Part shown: positions 2,811-8,669 of the stretch, one piece after another
Numbering within the stretch: position 1 is the first letter of the stretch
Layout: every line of letters starts with the position of its first letter
Assembly (NCBI RefSeq): GCF_009687845.1
Contig: NZ_BLAD01000060.1
Coordinates: forward strand, 1-64,000
Length of the DNA stretch: 64,000 bases
Direction of reading: 5' to 3'
From: Acrocarpospora corrugata
GTDB taxonomy: Bacteria; Actinomycetota; Actinomycetes; Streptosporangiales; Streptosporangiaceae
The notes under the pieces: model-generated
What the model saw: the letters and a program-made list of their open reading frames with translations, nothing else
The model's database searches: none
Told to the model about the DNA's origin: nothing
Translations under genes and position numbers: made by a program

Positions 2811-4109
2811 TCAGGGTTGGATTCGGTGTTGGTCGAGGTGGGCCAGGATCGTGTGGTTCGCCGCCCAGCCGTCCGGGAATTTGATCGGGACGTTGAGTTG
2901 CATGCGCGGGCTGGACGGATGGTGGTCCAAAAGGTCGGCGATGCCCGCGCGGGCGACCACGATGCAGGCGTGGCGGTGGCGGGAGGTGAGGACGCAGAGG
3001 CGGCCGGATTCGAGGTGGAAGGCGGTGGCGTCGCGGCGGCCGGAGAGGGGGTGCCAGACGAGGGTGATGTCGTATTCGCGGCCTTGGAGGCGGTTGGCGG
3101 TGTCGATGGTGACGCCGGGTGGGGGGTTGGCGGCGCGGACGGCGGCGACCTGGTCGTTGTGGGCGCAGCCGATGGCGATGCGGTCGGGGGTGATGGGGTG
3201 GGAGCCGTGTTCGTCGTGGGCGATGGCGCCGCGGTCGAGGATTCGGCGGGCCAGGGCGGCGCAGGCGTGGGCCACGTCGGGGTCGGTCCGTACGGTGTGG
3301 CGGTCGGGGAGTTCGTGGAGTGCCCAGCCGGACGCGGTGGCTTCCTCGATGGTGGGGTCCCACGGGCCGGGGAGGCCGCGGACGGGGAGTTCGAGGCGGC
3401 GTTCGCCGGGGGCGGTGCCGGGGGAGAAGCCGGCGGCGGGGTAGAAGGCGCGGGAGACGACGGGTGCCGCGGAGGCGGGGAGGCGCCACGAGACGGGGAG
3501 CTGGTGGACTTTGAGGTTGTTGGTCCGCTGGGTGACCGCGACGGCGCTCTGCAGGGGGTCCCAGGCCATGCCGGTCCAGCGGTCGCTCTCGATCACTGAG
3601 AACGGGTCGAGTTGCCCGGGGTCGCCGACGAACAGGGCGTGCCCGTCGGCGAAGAGGGAGGCGACGGCGAGGAGCTTGTCCGACCGCATCTGGTACGCCT
3701 CATCCACGATCGCCCAAGGCCAGCTACGCCCGGAAATGTACGCCCATTTGTCGGCGGTGGCGACGACGACCTGACAATTCTCGACATTCTCGATCTTGTT
3801 GTGGAGCGTGACTCCGGGGTGGCGGGTGACGCGGTCCGGTGGTTCGAAGCCTTCGGCGTGGAGCCGCCCGATGTCGATGCCGGGGGCGTTGCTCGCGAGC
3901 TTGTCCACCAGGTCGTCGACCTGCTCGTTGGTCTGCGCCACGATCATCAGCCGTTCGTCGGCTTTGACGAGTTCGATGCTGGTCGACACGACCAGGGTGG
4001 TCTTGCCCGCCCCGGGCGGGGAGTCGACGACCAGTCCGCGATGCGCGCCGCTCGTGTAGTCCGAGAGGATTTCCGCCGTGGTGGCTCTGGATTGGTCCTG
4101 CGGCGTCAT
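2811..4109 (-). CDS. SF1 (Upf1/Dna2-type) DNA/RNA helicase, last gene of a four-gene operon
   Basis: ATPase of 432 residues. Superfamily 1 helicase motifs are visible: Walker A PPGAGKTT (31-38), Ia region AQTNEQVDDLV (58-68), Walker B IVDEAYQM (134-141), motif III VGDPGQLDP (161-169), motif V NRLQGREYD and motif VI TSRHRHACIVV near the C-terminus. The motif set is most like Upf1/Dna2-type SF1B helicases. It is compact, with no obvious accessory nuclease domain of its own. Start chosen at ATG 4109 because it overlaps the preceding gene's TGA (ATGA, 4106-4109); a longer reading to 4175 would overlap deeply. It is the last gene of the operon that begins at 7394. Role is inferred to be nucleic-acid unwinding together with the Fe-S nuclease-fold protein two genes upstream. 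A defence or repair function is likely but not shown. Confidence 0.85.
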   Translation of the reverse strand: MTPQDQSRATTAEILSDYTSGAHRGLVVDSPPGAGKTTLVVSTSIELVKADERLMIVAQTNEQVDDLVDKLASNAPGIDIGRLHAEGFEPPDRVTRHPGVTLHNKIENVENCQVVVATADKWAYISGRSWPWAIVDEAYQMRSDKLLAVASLFADGHALFVGDPGQLDPFSVIESDRWTGMAWDPLQSAVAVTQRTNNLKVHQLPVSWRLPASAAPVVSRAFYPAAGFSPGTAPGERRLELPVRGLPGPWDPTIEEATASGWALHELPDRHTVRTDPDVAHACAALARRILDRGAIAHDEHGSHPITPDRIAIGCAHNDQVAAVRAANPPPGVTIDTANRLQGREYDITLVWHPLSGRRDATAFHLESGRLCVLTSRHRHACIVVARAGIADLLDHHPSSPRMQLNVPIKFPDGWAANHTILAHLDQHRIQP

Positions 4110-5539
4110 GACCAGGCCTCCTGCGCGTCCTCGTCCGTCGGTACGTACTCGGGGGGCGGGCCGCCGTGGGTCCACGGGGTTTCCGTCACGTCGGGGAGGG
4201 CCGGGCGGCGGCCCCCGGCGGGATCGAGTTCGGTGTAACAGACGACCTCTCCCGGCGAGGGCAGCGTCGCGTCCTTGGTCATGCCGCTGTTGATCTGAAG
4301 CGTCACGATATCGGCGTCTACGGACACCAGGACGGTGCCCTGCTTCGGCCGGGCGGGGGATAGCAGCTTCTTGCCGGGCGCGAACCTGACCGGATCGCTG
4401 GTCCCGATGGTCACCAGCGGGCGGGCCACCAGCCGTTTCTTGCCAGGCGGGATGATCTTACGGTCGGCGTCGACGGTGATCACCCGGCCGGTGAAGGCGG
4501 CGCCCTCGGCGCGGTGCTCGGCCATCACCAGCGGATCGTCGAACGCCTTGCTCGCCTCGTAGCTCTGCTGGGCGCCCTCCAGCCCGGCCAGCCGCCGCGC
4601 CGCCGCGACCGCGCTGTCCCACCGCCCCGGCGGCAGCCCGCCTTCGGCGATCCACGTGTTCTGCCTGGCCAGCGCCGTACGATCCCGCTCCCACCGTCCT
4701 TCGGCACTGTCCGCGTCCGGTACGGCACGCAGCAGATCGACCGCACGCCACATCAGCTCCCAGGTGGGTTCGAGCTGCCCGCGCAGGGCCTCGTGGAGCC
4801 GGGCCGGGGAAGGCGCGTCGATCAGCGGTTTCAGGACATGCCGGTCGAAGCCGGGATCGGTGTCGGGGCCCGCCGGGGGCGAGCGCAGCGGGTCTTCCGC
4901 GATGAGCGCCGCGTCCTGCCCGGTCATGCCGTCCGGCGGATCTATCCACGCCAGCTGCCCGGCGAGGTTCACGTTCTCGGGGCCGCTCAGGCCGGTCACC
5001 CAGTGTTCGGCGAGCAGGTCGGTCATGGCGAGCAGCATGGCCGAACCGGCGAACTCGCTGCGCTCGTGCAGGAAGGTCAGCCACCGGCCGAGCAGCGGCA
5101 CCTGCGGCGCGACCGCGTGCGGGCCCTCGGTCGCCCGGAAGCGCGTCGACCGCCCGATCAGCCGGATGAAGGCGAGCCCGCCCGGATTGGGAACCAGGAT
5201 CTGCGGCGCGTCCAGGCACCGCTCATACGCACTCTTGGTGTCCGAAATTTCAACCTGCGCCGCATATTTCTGGATGTACGGCACGATGATTTCGGCGAGT
5301 TCGGCCATGAAAGTGAAGCGCTGGTCGCGGCTGCGCGGGTTCGCGACCCCCAGCAGGCGGGCGTCGGCGCGGCCGGTGCCGACCATCGCCGCCAGCGGAG
5401 CGGCCGCCTCGCCGGCCAGGCGCAGCGGGATGAACACCAGCGGCTCCGCGGACAGATGGGCGTGGCGCACCGTCGCGGCCGGTTGGGCGCGGCCTTCCCG
5501 TACGGCGCGCACGGTCAGGAAGGATCGCAGCAGGCTCAC
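4106..5539 (-). CDS. unknown protein, third gene of the helicase/nuclease operon
   Basis: 477 residues, no family I can name. Start GTG 5539 overlaps the upstream TGA (GTGA), and the end overlaps the helicase start, so the gene is translationally coupled on both sides. The N-terminal two-thirds is mixed alpha/beta with many Arg and Leu. Residues from about 375 to 450 look like a small beta-barrel: alternating hydrophobic strands with Val/Ile pairs, PGKK turns, and a GTVLVSVDADIVTLQI strand pair. A barrel of this kind precedes the SF1 motor in Upf1/Dna2-type enzymes (domain 1B/stalk). Because it sits directly before the helicase gene, it could supply that module in trans. This is inference from pattern and context only. 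Confidence 0.7.
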   Translation of the reverse strand: MSLLRSFLTVRAVREGRAQPAATVRHAHLSAEPLVFIPLRLAGEAAAPLAAMVGTGRADARLLGVANPRSRDQRFTFMAELAEIIVPYIQKYAAQVEISDTKSAYERCLDAPQILVPNPGGLAFIRLIGRSTRFRATEGPHAVAPQVPLLGRWLTFLHERSEFAGSAMLLAMTDLLAEHWVTGLSGPENVNLAGQLAWIDPPDGMTGQDAALIAEDPLRSPPAGPDTDPGFDRHVLKPLIDAPSPARLHEALRGQLEPTWELMWRAVDLLRAVPDADSAEGRWERDRTALARQNTWIAEGGLPPGRWDSAVAAARRLAGLEGAQQSYEASKAFDDPLVMAEHRAEGAAFTGRVITVDADRKIIPPGKKRLVARPLVTIGTSDPVRFAPGKKLLSPARPKQGTVLVSVDADIVTLQINSGMTKDATLPSPGEVVCYTELDPAGGRRPALPDVTETPWTHGGPPPEYVPTDEDAQEAWS

Positions 5540-6645
5540 GCGACCACCTCGTCGAAGATCCTGCGCACGAACCCCAGCCGCTCCGCGATGGCCGCGTGCT
5601 CGGCGGACGGCACGCCGCTGCCCGCGATCAGATCCATCGCCACGGGCAGCGAGGCGACCCCGCCGAGATCGTCGCGGACGGTCCGCCCCAGCGCCTCCAG
5701 CGACCCGCACGCGCGCGCCTCGTCCCGGCAGAAATACGCCATTTCACACGCCGACAGGCACTCAGGGGCGTACCTGGCCGGAATGGAGGACAGTGCCGCC
5801 GAGAGCTCCGGCACCGGCCGGGTCGGCGTCTCGCCGTCCAGTTGCAGGTCGAGGCTGAGCCCCGGCGGCAATCGGTCGAGGAGCGTGTCGATCTTGGCCA
5901 GCCGCTGCAACTGCCGCTTCAACGCCTCCAGCTGGAGCCGCACATCGACCAGGCAGGCGGTCGGAAAGTTCATGAAATCCTTGGGGCAGATCAGGACGAC
6001 ATCGTGCGAAACCCGCTCAGGGTCCAGCCCGAGCTGCGCGAACAGATCCCGCATCGCGTGCACGTAGACGGCCGCTTCGCGCGCGGCGGCGGACACCTTC
6101 CCCGAGTCGGCCTGCCCATCGATGATCGCGAACGATTTGATCGCCACGACGTGGAACCGCCGGTCGACCTGGAAGGCGATGACGTCCGGTTCCAGGTACA
6201 CGTCGTAGCCGGCGACCCCGAGCTTGAGCAGCGGATGGTCGACGAGTGTGGCCGCGTCGGCCGGATTCTCGGCCGCCGATTTCAGCACGGCCATGGTGTG
6301 CCGATACCGGACCCCGTGACCGGCGTCTGCGCCGACATCGCCGACGTCGTGATATCCCGCCTCTTCGACGGACAACCCCAGCACTTCGCGCAGCAGCCGC
6401 AGGATGTGCGCCCCGCCGTGCGCTTTGACGGTGGCCCTGAACTCCTGCGTCCGCGAGACCGCGAACGGCGACTGCCCGAATCGCGTCGGAAATCCGAGAT
6501 GCTCCACGGTCTTGGCCTTGTCGATCCCGGCGGCGTCCAGCACCGCCCGGCGGTCGCACGCGGGATTGGCGGCCAGCGCGGCGATGCGGCGCGCATCGTG
6601 ATCGACCGGCAGGCTGCGCCCGCGAATCGCGTCCAGGCGGCTCAC
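5536..6645 (-). CDS. Cas4/RecB-like Fe-S nuclease-fold protein with altered active site
   Basis: 369 residues. A PD-(D/E)XK core is suggested by LEPDVIAF (D154) followed by FHVVAIKSF, where K170 fits the motif lysine. The residue expected to be acidic is Ala168 (codon 6142-6144, GCG where GAG would give Glu). A cysteine cluster near the C-terminus, C296-x3-C300-x5-C306-x6-C313, together with a lone early cysteine C30, resembles the four-Cys 4Fe-4S arrangement of Cas4, AddB and Dna2 nucleases. Further family-like features are the GQSPFA segment and the QAD-x2-K region after the lysine. Start ATG 6645 overlaps the upstream stop; the end overlaps the next GTG. Expected role: a nuclease or DNA-end-binding partner of the helicase. 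The Glu-to-Ala change could make it catalytically dead, unless another acidic residue substitutes. Confidence 0.7.
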   Translation of the reverse strand: MSRLDAIRGRSLPVDHDARRIAALAANPACDRRAVLDAAGIDKAKTVEHLGFPTRFGQSPFAVSRTQEFRATVKAHGGAHILRLLREVLGLSVEEAGYHDVGDVGADAGHGVRYRHTMAVLKSAAENPADAATLVDHPLLKLGVAGYDVYLEPDVIAFQVDRRFHVVAIKSFAIIDGQADSGKVSAAAREAAVYVHAMRDLFAQLGLDPERVSHDVVLICPKDFMNFPTACLVDVRLQLEALKRQLQRLAKIDTLLDRLPPGLSLDLQLDGETPTRPVPELSAALSSIPARYAPECLSACEMAYFCRDEARACGSLEALGRTVRDDLGGVASLPVAMDLIAGSGVPSAEHAAIAERLGFVRRIFDEVVA

Positions 6646-7394
6646 GCGATCCTCGCCGTCTTCAGCCCGGCTCCGAACAGCCGATTGACCTCCGGCAACT
6701 GCCGCGCCGCCCGCTCAGCCGCGGCCGCACGCTGCCGCAGATCCTTCTCCTGATGTACGGCAAGCTCAGCCTGAGCCGCCACGACGACCGCGGCCGGATC
6801 GGCAGGCCCGAAATCGTCCATCGCGCCCGGGATGTTCTGCGCCAGCTGGGTCAGGAGCCGGAATGCCACGACGGGATTCTCCCCCACAGAAGCGAGCCCC
6901 CGCACCCGTTCCGCGATCCTGACGGCCGTGGTCAGAAAGTCGGTACGCAGGCTGAGCGGCCCGACGACGCGCACCGGCGCCGCCCAGGTGCTGATCGCCA
7001 GCAGCCCCCGCGCCGGAGACAGCCGCTCGGCGGTCAGCGCCGCGCACAGATAGTACGGCCGGGCATTGGGGGCGGACCGGAACGACTTCTCCTCATCCCT
7101 GCGCAGACTGGAAAGCTGCGTGTTCACCAGCATCCCGCCGAAGAACGCCTCATCCACGGAGACAATGATCTTCGTCGCCGACGGCACTCCGAGGAACGTC
7201 AGCACTTGGTGCACGTTCTCCCGGACCGGCGGCCGAGGCAGCGGCGGCGGATCAAGCGTCTCCTCCCAGGCCCGCTCGGCCTGCCGGAGCTCCGCCCGCA
7301 ACGACCTCACCCGCACCGGATCGTTCACCGCCGAGGCCGCACGAATCTCCCGCCGCAGAGCCAACATGCGCTCCTCCAGCCCATCCATGTCCAC
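6642..7394 (-). CDS. unknown protein with N-terminal coiled coil, first gene of the operon
   Basis: About 250 residues. The start is ambiguous: GTG 7394 has an AAGG element 9 bases upstream and is my choice, ATG 7388 is almost as good, and a TTG at 7412 is possible. Residues 5-50 form a charged heptad-like helix (LEERMLALRREI, LRAELRQAERAW). The middle is alpha/beta with VSVDEAFFGGML and LLAISTWAAPVRV segments. The C-terminal 50 residues are again helical and Arg/Ala-rich. No catalytic motif is visible. The stop overlaps the nuclease-like gene's ATG (6642-6645). As the promoter-proximal member it may be an adaptor or sensor for the helicase/nuclease assembly; that is conjecture. Confidence 0.65.
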   Translation of the reverse strand: MDMDGLEERMLALRREIRAASAVNDPVRVRSLRAELRQAERAWEETLDPPPLPRPPVRENVHQVLTFLGVPSATKIIVSVDEAFFGGMLVNTQLSSLRRDEEKSFRSAPNARPYYLCAALTAERLSPARGLLAISTWAAPVRVVGPLSLRTDFLTTAVRIAERVRGLASVGENPVVAFRLLTQLAQNIPGAMDDFGPADPAAVVVAAQAELAVHQEKDLRQRAAAAERAARQLPEVNRLFGAGLKTARIA

Positions 7395-8000: not shown

Positions 8001-8669
8001 TCAAGTGGCTGGTTCGTCGCCCTCGATCAGGAAGCCCAGGTGGGGCTGGGGGAGGAGTGGGGCGGTGCCTAACAGCCAGTCGGCGAGGCGGTCTCGTTCG
8101 ATGAGGAGTAAGGGCTGTCTGGCGGTGAGGGCTTCCTCGCGGGCTTGGCGGGTGAGGCGGCCGGAGGTGACCAGGACGCCGGTGTGGCCGGCGAAGGTGT
8201 TGGCGAGGGCGCCGAGGAAGTTGCGGACCTCGGGTGCGCCGACCGTTTTGCTGTATCGCTTGCACTGGACGGCGTAGCGCTGGCCTTTCGGGGTGGTCGC
8301 GGTGATGTCGACGCCTCGGTCGCCGCTGCGGCCGGTTTCCCTTACCTGGCGGAAGCCGTCGGCGGTCATTCGTTCGGCGATGAGATGCTCGAACTCGGGG
8401 CCGGACATCCGGTCGACCTTCGCCAGTTCGACGTTGGCCGCGAGGAACTGGGCCCGTCGTCTTTCGATCACGCGGAAACGCAGGAAGAGGCCGCCGACCA
8501 GGGCCAGCGCCGCCGCACAGACGATCGCCGCCGCCCAGCCCGGGTGCTCGTTGACGAAGCGTGCCACCACCACGATCGCCGCGACGGCGATCAGGACTCC
8601 CAGGACCCACAGTCCGCCGTCGCCGCTCGACCGTCTCCGTTTCTTGCCTCGCCCGGAGCCCCTCGCCAT
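8001..8669 (-). CDS. membrane-anchored Mrr-type restriction endonuclease
   Basis: 222 residues, start ATG 8669 with a strong AGGAGGAA ribosome site just upstream. Two membrane segments follow a basic N-terminus (about 20-38 and 46-66). Then comes an Mrr_cat domain: MSGPEFEHLIAERM helix (88-101), GDRGVDI with D121, and the strand YAVQCKRYS with Gln136-x-Lys138, the D...QxK version of the PD-(D/E)XK site typical of Mrr nucleases. Mrr-family enzymes cut modified or foreign DNA. The membrane-tethered form suggests action at the cell envelope, for instance on incoming DNA. It is divergently arranged with a methyltransferase gene (8797), but that protein looks like a small-molecule methyltransferase rather than a DNA modification partner. 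Confidence 0.85.
   Translation of the reverse strand: MARGSGRGKKRRRSSGDGGLWVLGVLIAVAAIVVVARFVNEHPGWAAAIVCAAALALVGGLFLRFRVIERRRAQFLAANVELAKVDRMSGPEFEHLIAERMTADGFRQVRETGRSGDRGVDITATTPKGQRYAVQCKRYSKTVGAPEVRNFLGALANTFAGHTGVLVTSGRLTRQAREEALTARQPLLLIERDRLADWLLGTAPLLPQPHLGFLIEGDEPAT

Follow-up and report, generated by a model that had tools for sequence, protein, structure and literature searches.

A conserved actinomycete operon that may encode a DNA2-like helicase–nuclease on separate chains

A four-gene overlapping operon

The first 64,000 nucleotides of contig NZ_BLAD01000060.1 of Acrocarpospora corrugata (assembly GCF_009687845.1; this stretch is hereafter the window) contain a minus-strand operon of four genes, g1 to g4, whose last three products are predicted to be the nuclease, the stalk and barrel, and the helicase of a DNA2-like enzyme. 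The leader, g1 (6642..7394), encodes 250 amino acids from a GTG start at 7394 (an ATG at 7388 is also possible), has a fold without assignment and is accessory. It is followed by g2 (5536..6645; 369 amino acids), a predicted four-cysteine PD-(D/E)XK nuclease of the RecB/Cas4/DNA2 type; g3 (4106..5539; 477 amino acids), a putative scaffold with an alpha/beta N-terminal domain, long helices and a strand-rich C-terminal domain; and g4 (2811..4109; 432 amino acids), a minimal superfamily 1 (SF1) helicase core similar to those of DNA2, UPF1 and SMUBP2. Both the open reading frame (ORF) calls and the sequence itself bear out the initial annotation, which was made from the letters and their ORFs, in placing four minus-strand frames here with three 4-bp overlaps: GTGA at 6642..6645 (g1/g2), GTGA at 5536..5539 (g2/g3) and ATGA at 4106..4109 (g3/g4). 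The 9.27-Mb host genome holds a single g4, and at the DNA level the operon matches it over its full length only once.

These overlaps are more than chance, because the coupling is kept across 95 non-redundant loci and in a distant relative. According to our own gene calls in those loci (102 sequences, that is, the window and 101 further loci numbered with an L, minus six duplicates and L099, in which g3 is absent from the calls though tblastn finds all four genes), g2 and g3 lie on the same strand and overlap or are at most 100 nucleotides apart in 85 of 93 cases, as do g3 and g4 in 82 of 91. In L153, a relative outside the class with a g3 so divergent that it is recognised only at E 4e-23, the genes g2, g3 and g4 stand in the same order with a 4-bp overlap at both junctions. 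A conserved gene order was thus found in homologous loci.

Only weak, chance-level matches to Pfam, NCBIfam, PADLOC or PHROGs were obtained for g1 to g3, none of which belongs to a named family in these libraries. The PADLOC-DB 2.0.0 models gave no match to g1–g3 and only partial helicase matches to g4 (best MkoA at 1e-8; best stretch residues 26–76), and none of its models of known anti-phage systems describes the operon genes, in keeping with the earlier remark that no named defence system has this composition. Nor was a description of the operon recognised in the literature searched, which preprints and most subscription journals lay beyond. The operon is therefore real, conserved and without a name in the libraries and literature searched; it may be in print elsewhere.

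Predicted nuclease, scaffold and motor

By predicted fold and motifs, g2 is a RecB-type nuclease with four spaced cysteines. Its AlphaFold2 model (predicted local distance difference test score, pLDDT, 89.5) has strands and helices in PD-(D/E)XK order, and 37 of its top 50 Foldseek matches in the PDB (manual count) are of the RecB/Cas4/lambda-exonuclease type, comprising RecE, ACE1, Cas4, MGME1, lambda exonuclease, DNA2, AddAB, AdnAB, EXO5 and RecBCD; most of the remainder are viral cap-snatching endonucleases. The four-cysteine cluster noted initially is present in g2 and kept in its relatives, for which structure alignments of 72 and 66 chosen sequences were used. Cys30 (6556..6558, minus strand), the first predicted Fe–S ligand, is found in 65 of 66 relatives and 106 of 107 sequences in a wider set (one gapped in each), and Cys296-x3-Cys300-x5-Cys306 (5728..5760, minus strand), the remaining three predicted ligands, in 66 of 66 and 107 of 107. 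The putative active-site stretch (6136..6186, minus strand) comprises Asp154 and Ala168-x-Lys170, an ExK motif with its Glu replaced by Ala here; across the wider set Asp154 is kept in 102, Glu168 in 95 and Lys170 in 105 of the 107 sequences, and g2 of L153 keeps all nuclease and cysteine residues. Comparison with PDB sequence profiles returned nothing meaningful for g2 (mainly designed repeat proteins over 30 residues). A classification of g2 as a plain Cas4 was rejected, given that the nuclease of TIGR03491 proteins is the better match and that the Pfam Cas4 profile (PF01930) found no match in g2.

The model of g3 is similarly confident (pLDDT 90.3; predicted template modelling score 0.87) and, as initially annotated, its C terminus is rich in beta structure: the alpha/beta N-terminal domain is followed by long helices at residues 229–344 and six strands at 348–436, which we read as a barrel. 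Foldseek placed DNA2 at ranks 1, 2 and 14 and Upf1 at rank 43, all at E of at least 3.7e-3, and many of the other matches are unrelated proteins over about 100 residues; PDB sequence profiles gave nothing meaningful for g3. The predicted folds of both g2 and g3 are compatible with DNA2 rather than unrelated to it.

The identification of g4 as a Upf1/Dna2-type SF1 helicase was confirmed by matches to Pfam AAA_11 (1.3e-10) and, more weakly, AAA_12, and to PDB profiles of SMUBP2 (8.7e-12), DNA2 (2.9e-9) and UPF1 (4.5e-7). Across its seven helicase motifs, the commonest residue at each position occurs in 94–105 of 105 sequences. With its 432 amino acids, g4 can hardly accommodate the stalk and barrel that this helicase group carries; g3 would supply them.

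Correspondence with single-chain enzymes

The same three pieces were compared with TIGR03491 proteins, represented by 14 ORFs found in 13 of the 21 genomes above the threshold (one ORF, from L225, is without a helicase match), and g2, the C terminus of g3, and g4 match, in that order, their nuclease, pre-helicase region and motor. The g4 alignment to the helicase part reached E 9e-24 in hhalign. When g2 was aligned to the nuclease plus the following region, the score was 34.2, against 13.4 for column-shuffled controls (standard deviation 2.1, maximum 23.4, 0 of 295 reaching it), with the cysteine triplet and the region after it in register; against full-length TIGR03491 profiles it was 33.0, with a maximum of 26.1 among 59 shuffles. 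For g3, nine region pairings were tried with 25 shuffles each. Two were reached by none of the 25, namely residues 226–445 and the barrel alone, both against the pre-helicase region; the former scored 26.7 (shuffles 12.7, standard deviation 2.3, maximum 22.9, 0 of 299) and the latter 22.5 (shuffle maximum 13.0). The matching part, the putative stalk and barrel at residues 229–436, is encoded at 4232..4855 on the minus strand. The other seven pairings were reached by 23, 1, 6, 6, 4, 15 and 2 of 25 shuffles, the pairing reached once being the N-terminal half of g3 against the pre-helicase region over 18 columns. As the middle piece, g3 is the least certain of the three matches. An RNase H-like N terminus for g3, an idea that arose from the order of its secondary structure and from an RNase_H_2 protein beside the L153 trio, was rejected: residues 1–225 scored 11.0 against the RNase H region of TIGR03491 proteins, a value reached by 23 of 25 shuffles.

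The Geobacillus enzyme Bad combines a 5′–3′ motor with an Fe–S nuclease and prefers 5′-overhang substrates (Wilkinson et al. 2020, PMC7430649). Bad and TIGR03491 proteins share with the trio the order Fe–S nuclease, middle region and SF1 helicase, and the cellular role of Bad is likewise not established (PMC7430649). There are also differences. Bad is reported to be rare and sporadic (PMC7430649), whereas g3 is near-universal in sampled Streptomyces. Moreover, Bad and TIGR03491 proteins hold nuclease and helicase in a single polypeptide, whereas these lie on separate genes in the window, in L153 and in the 95 loci, and we therefore file the trio as a split variant rather than as a member of the family. 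TIGR03491 proteins also have an RNase H region in their middle, to which the first half of g3 showed no match. Eukaryotic DNA2 has the same types of component, and it appears in the Foldseek lists of g2 and g3 and among the PDB profile matches of g4; it is, however, one chain, and neither g2 nor g3 has a sequence-profile match to the DNA2 chains in the PDB. The initial description of a Dna2 enzyme in pieces thus holds as anatomy, with predicted nuclease, stalk and barrel, and helicase on separate coupled genes.

The iron-staple nucleases Cas4, AddB and EXO5 have, like g2, one N-terminal and three C-terminal cysteines together with RecB-type motifs, but the Cas4 set has C-x2-C where g2 has C-x3-C, and among the scanned neighbours a Cas4 context is limited to one Cas1–Cas4 fusion about 7 kb away (L042). 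AddAB, AdnAB and RecBCD, which appear in the Foldseek list of g2, also join an SF1 helicase and a RecB nuclease in a multi-chain enzyme; their motors are of the UvrD type with the nuclease fused, whereas the trio has a UPF1/DNA2-type motor and a nuclease on its own chain. Two further loci show other arrangements. Overlapping g4 in L153 is a gene (L153:6059-7753, minus strand) for a 564-amino-acid protein with a weak PDDEXK_1 match, a cysteine-rich stretch, RNase_H_2 and no helicase; by sequence it resembles the N-terminal part of a TIGR03491 protein that acts in trans. In L046 (9873-11242, minus strand) a divergent helicase extends over two overlapping frames with RecA1 and RecA2 apart, either a natural split or a sequencing frameshift, and downstream of it lie an AddA-like UvrD–PDDEXK protein and a large MTES_1575 helicase.

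Conservation and distribution

A scan of a species-level genome collection with a g3 profile yielded at least 531 confirmed relatives, and the 80 of them that were retained are all actinomycetes by title. In the 95 loci a tblastn census found g1–g4 in 76, g2–g3–g4 in 14, g2–g3 in three, g3–g4 in one and g1–g2–g3 in one, which makes g2–g3–g4 the core. Five genomes in which g4 does not adjoin g3 were examined, and all hold g4 elsewhere (E<=1e-200). In four of these g4 stands alone, neither g2 nor g3 being present in the surrounding 15 kb retrieved, and the persistence of this gene indicates that the trio is retained despite a broken operon. The fifth, an Actinoplanes (G594, the source of L111), carries three or more copies of the operon, whole or in part: two complete g1–g4 sets, the g1–g2–g3 set of L111 and a lone interrupted g4 in two pieces.

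The leader g1 is usual but dispensable and lies outside this core, because it is missing from 18 of the 95 loci and from all 11 Streptomyces main loci; tblastn found it in the other 77, and a contig end lies close upstream in three of the 18. The census relied on tblastn since our own gene calls lacked g1 at a number of loci, including L092, L095, L108 and L124. Neither A. macrocephala (L047) nor genome G001 (L031) has a g1 upstream of g2, which there begins 53–56 nucleotides after the next gene. Pairwise distances of g1 correlate with those of g2, g3 and g4 at r 0.84–0.86, in part through shared species history. Its Pfam matches are weak and inconsistent, and PDB sequence profiles gave nothing meaningful (a short Rabenosyn helix pair), such that the coiled coil initially ascribed to g1 amounts to a weak resemblance in both searches and was not confirmed.

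By lineage, g3 occurs in 15 of the 396 genomes that were sampled from the whole phylum (11 of the 15 being Streptomyces). Within Streptomyces it is present in 141 of 150 genomes; sampling the genus by way of Streptomyces sp. 8K308 gave 142 of 150, with the same match coordinates and for the most part the same genomes. It is also present in all five sampled genomes of the genus of the window, and in 82 of 150 genomes of its family, spread over 32 of 68 genera. All 11 inspected Streptomyces main loci share their flanks, with neighbours that include a two-component pair, a TPR protein and a histidine phosphatase. The distribution in Streptomyces is that of a core gene set and is patchier elsewhere, and the g3 tree (FastTree, with 36 of 106 inner branches weakly supported and L082 omitted) mostly agrees with taxonomy. 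Shortly downstream of the Streptomyces main-locus trio is a small Prim-Pol domain protein (L164:13121-13708 and equivalents; a homologue in 8 of 11 loci). A gene cluster that includes a GGDEF–EAL protein (in L114) lies downstream of g3 in L114, L118, L126, L155 and the Streptomyces main loci; that it is common to Micromonosporaceae and Streptomyces hints at an old shared chromosomal position.

Proposed mechanism and alternatives

We suggest, with a probability of about two in three, that g2, g3 and g4 form one stoichiometric helicase–nuclease, equivalent in three chains to what bacterial DNA2-like proteins of the TIGR03491/Bad type are in one. In such a complex, g2 would be the Fe–S nuclease, g4 the two-RecA-domain motor, and g3 would provide the stalk and barrel that precede the motor in fused enzymes along with a new N-terminal domain; g1 may be an accessory partner. 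By analogy with Bad and DNA2, we infer that the complex would load on 5′-tailed junctions of single- and double-stranded DNA, move 5′ to 3′ and cut the tracked strand, and that it would thereby process flaps or DNA ends. Most probably it would serve mainly in chromosome maintenance in spore-forming actinomycetes, where it would process forks, flaps or breaks, while some copies may have been recruited against foreign DNA together with SbcCD, the bacterial Mre11–Rad50 that senses DNA ends, and with the defence system Wadjet. In favour of this interpretation stand the collinear matches of all three genes to TIGR03491 proteins, the predicted folds of g2 and g3, the retained helicase motifs and nuclease and cysteine residues, the coupling kept in L153, the correlated distances of the three genes, and the distribution and shared flanks in Streptomyces.

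Several observations weigh against this interpretation. No Foldseek match of g2 or g3 reached E<=1e-3, and the hhalign probabilities are low in absolute terms (15.5 for g2 and 8.3 for g3), so the case for their homology rests on the shuffle controls and on collinearity; against a small alignment of seven Cas4 sequences, g2 reached a probability of 0.4. The pre-helicase match of g3 is seen only when regions are cut out, the best full-length alignment to TIGR03491 lying elsewhere (E 0.14, barely above shuffles), and its N-terminal half has no convincing match to anything. That TIGR03491/TM0106 RecB-like proteins are the actinobacterial kin of Bad is our assumption. The close correlation between the pairwise distances of g2, g3 and g4 (r 0.93–0.94), which in itself speaks for the complex, is partly a reflection of shared species history. 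Beyond Streptomyces the genes are not universal, given that only those 32 of 68 family genera hold g3, and the single copy in the draft genome of Streptomyces sp. 8K308 is of the accessory type. Finally, the nuclease of the window is without the Glu of its ExK motif.

This last point would fit an alternative in which the nuclease of the window copy is inactive and the complex acts only as a helicase or an end-binding scaffold. The Glu, replaced here by Ala168, is missing from 10 of 66 sequences and from 12 of 107 in the wider set. However, Asp154, Lys170 and the four cysteines are all kept in the window, and Q190E, a change of the Gln that most relatives have in their QxxxY motif, which produces Glu190 in the window (6076..6078, minus strand), occurs in 8 of 66 sequences, all of them without E168. 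These eight, which include the window, are exactly one clade with support of 100 in the g3 tree, and the simplest reading of the sequences is that the catalytic acid migrated once, from the strand to the helix, as in some restriction enzymes such as Cfr10I. With Glu190 a putative migrated acid, nuclease activity in this clade is uncertain, and we regard an inactive enzyme as quite unlikely. A further alternative, in which g4 works on RNA in the manner of UPF1 and the substrates of the operon are RNA or RNA–DNA hybrids rather than DNA ends, would fit the presence of SMUBP2 and UPF1 among the best PDB matches of g4; but DNA2 is in the same list, the partner nuclease is of the RecB/Cas4/DNA2 type, and neighbouring genes include SbcCD and the Prim-Pol domain protein, which together make this reading very improbable.

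The trio with g1 might instead be primarily immune, destroying foreign linear DNA ends fed to it by SbcCD sensing or by the linearisation of small circular plasmids by Wadjet. Genes for SbcD and SbcC follow g4 on the same strand in 5 of the 95 loci (L062, L092, L095, L098 and L122, at gaps of 23, 133, 30, 2 and 3 nucleotides, respectively), and at least one further SbcD is present in each of these five genomes. A Wadjet system lies directly downstream of g4 on two Streptomyces plasmids; GmrSD, McrBC, AIPR, RhuM, Cas1–Cas4 fusion and helicase–PLD genes are found near other copies; and an Mrr-type gene is upstream of the window copy. PADLOC families at E<=1e-15 were also more numerous in flanks (173 and 104 in two batches of together 245 proteins from 46 contexts) than in controls (36 in 137 proteins), a weak comparison in that it counts redundant families rather than genes (one protein can match dozens), distinctness guided the choice of contexts, and the controls too include matches to Mza proteins and a cytosine methylase. 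Against an immune role, the genes are near-universal in sampled Streptomyces, where all 11 loci checked are syntenic and have two-component, TPR and phosphatase genes around them, the tree mostly tracks taxonomy, and no relative of g2 was found in phage records and none of g2 or g3 in viral contigs. Because of this near-universality, the shared flanks and the taxonomy-like tree, a primarily immune operon seems rather unlikely to us. The initially proposed novel anti-phage module therefore does not stand as the principal explanation, though some copies may have a defence role. The neighbourhoods support recruitment of some copies into defence, those near defence genes or an extra SbcCD being a minority of the copies examined. 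The operon is not a demonstrated defence system and is best filed as a split bacterial DNA2-like helicase–nuclease.

A broader idea, which we put forward tentatively and hold to be doubtful, is that actinomycetes possess a bacterial counterpart of the Mre11–Rad50 and DNA2 pathway, consisting of a core split DNA2 in Streptomyces, a six-gene operon with an extra SbcCD in Amycolatopsis and Kibdelosporangium, and a possible Wadjet logic on plasmids. Of the four loci in the second of these settings, three have SbcD starting 2, 3 and 30 nucleotides past g4, and in the fourth the gap is 133 nucleotides. On plasmids, Wadjet would open circles, SbcCD would sense the ends, and split DNA2 would destroy them, such that a trio beside Wadjet would dispose of its linearised product. 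Wadjet is reported to cleave small circular, not linear, DNA (PMC10586767).

If our interpretation of the trio is true, nearly every Streptomyces, a genetic model genus with linear chromosomes, would have in split DNA2 a DNA-processing machine that has not yet been given a name. Its separate chains would allow nuclease, scaffold and motor to be studied and removed singly, which fused enzymes do not, and the dedicated SbcCD partner of some genomes would permit a direct test of cooperation between Mre11–Rad50 and DNA2. The system would also test how a repair machine becomes an immune one.

Accessory copies and neighbouring genes

Upstream of g1 in the window, a gene at 8001-8669 on the minus strand encodes a predicted membrane-anchored Mrr-type restriction endonuclease (Mrr_cat, 8e-32), with no homologue in the 101 other loci (tblastn, E 1e-4). 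Elsewhere, SbcCD genes lie divergently upstream of the operon in L026, L027 and L161 (in pieces in L027), and the genome of L161 likewise holds at least one further SbcD. Beyond SbcCD in L062 is a DUF2397 gene, which we take to be a Wadjet component. In three loci a gene is found between g3 and g4: a GmrSD-type gene on the plus strand in L109 (11579-13915, where the domain was found) and L116 (11577-13919, from the same cluster), and a RhuM-family gene in L086.

Some copies lie close to the ends of their records. That of L026 is about 11–16 kb from the end of a linear plasmid, that of L027 is 2–7 kb from the end of a record listed as circular, and an extra Streptomyces copy (G539:C1:6766) is 6.8 kb into its contig. 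In genome G573, an 8.5-Mb single contig carries two copies with equal scores, one close to each end (G573:C1:21660 and 8509455), as expected of terminal inverted repeats.

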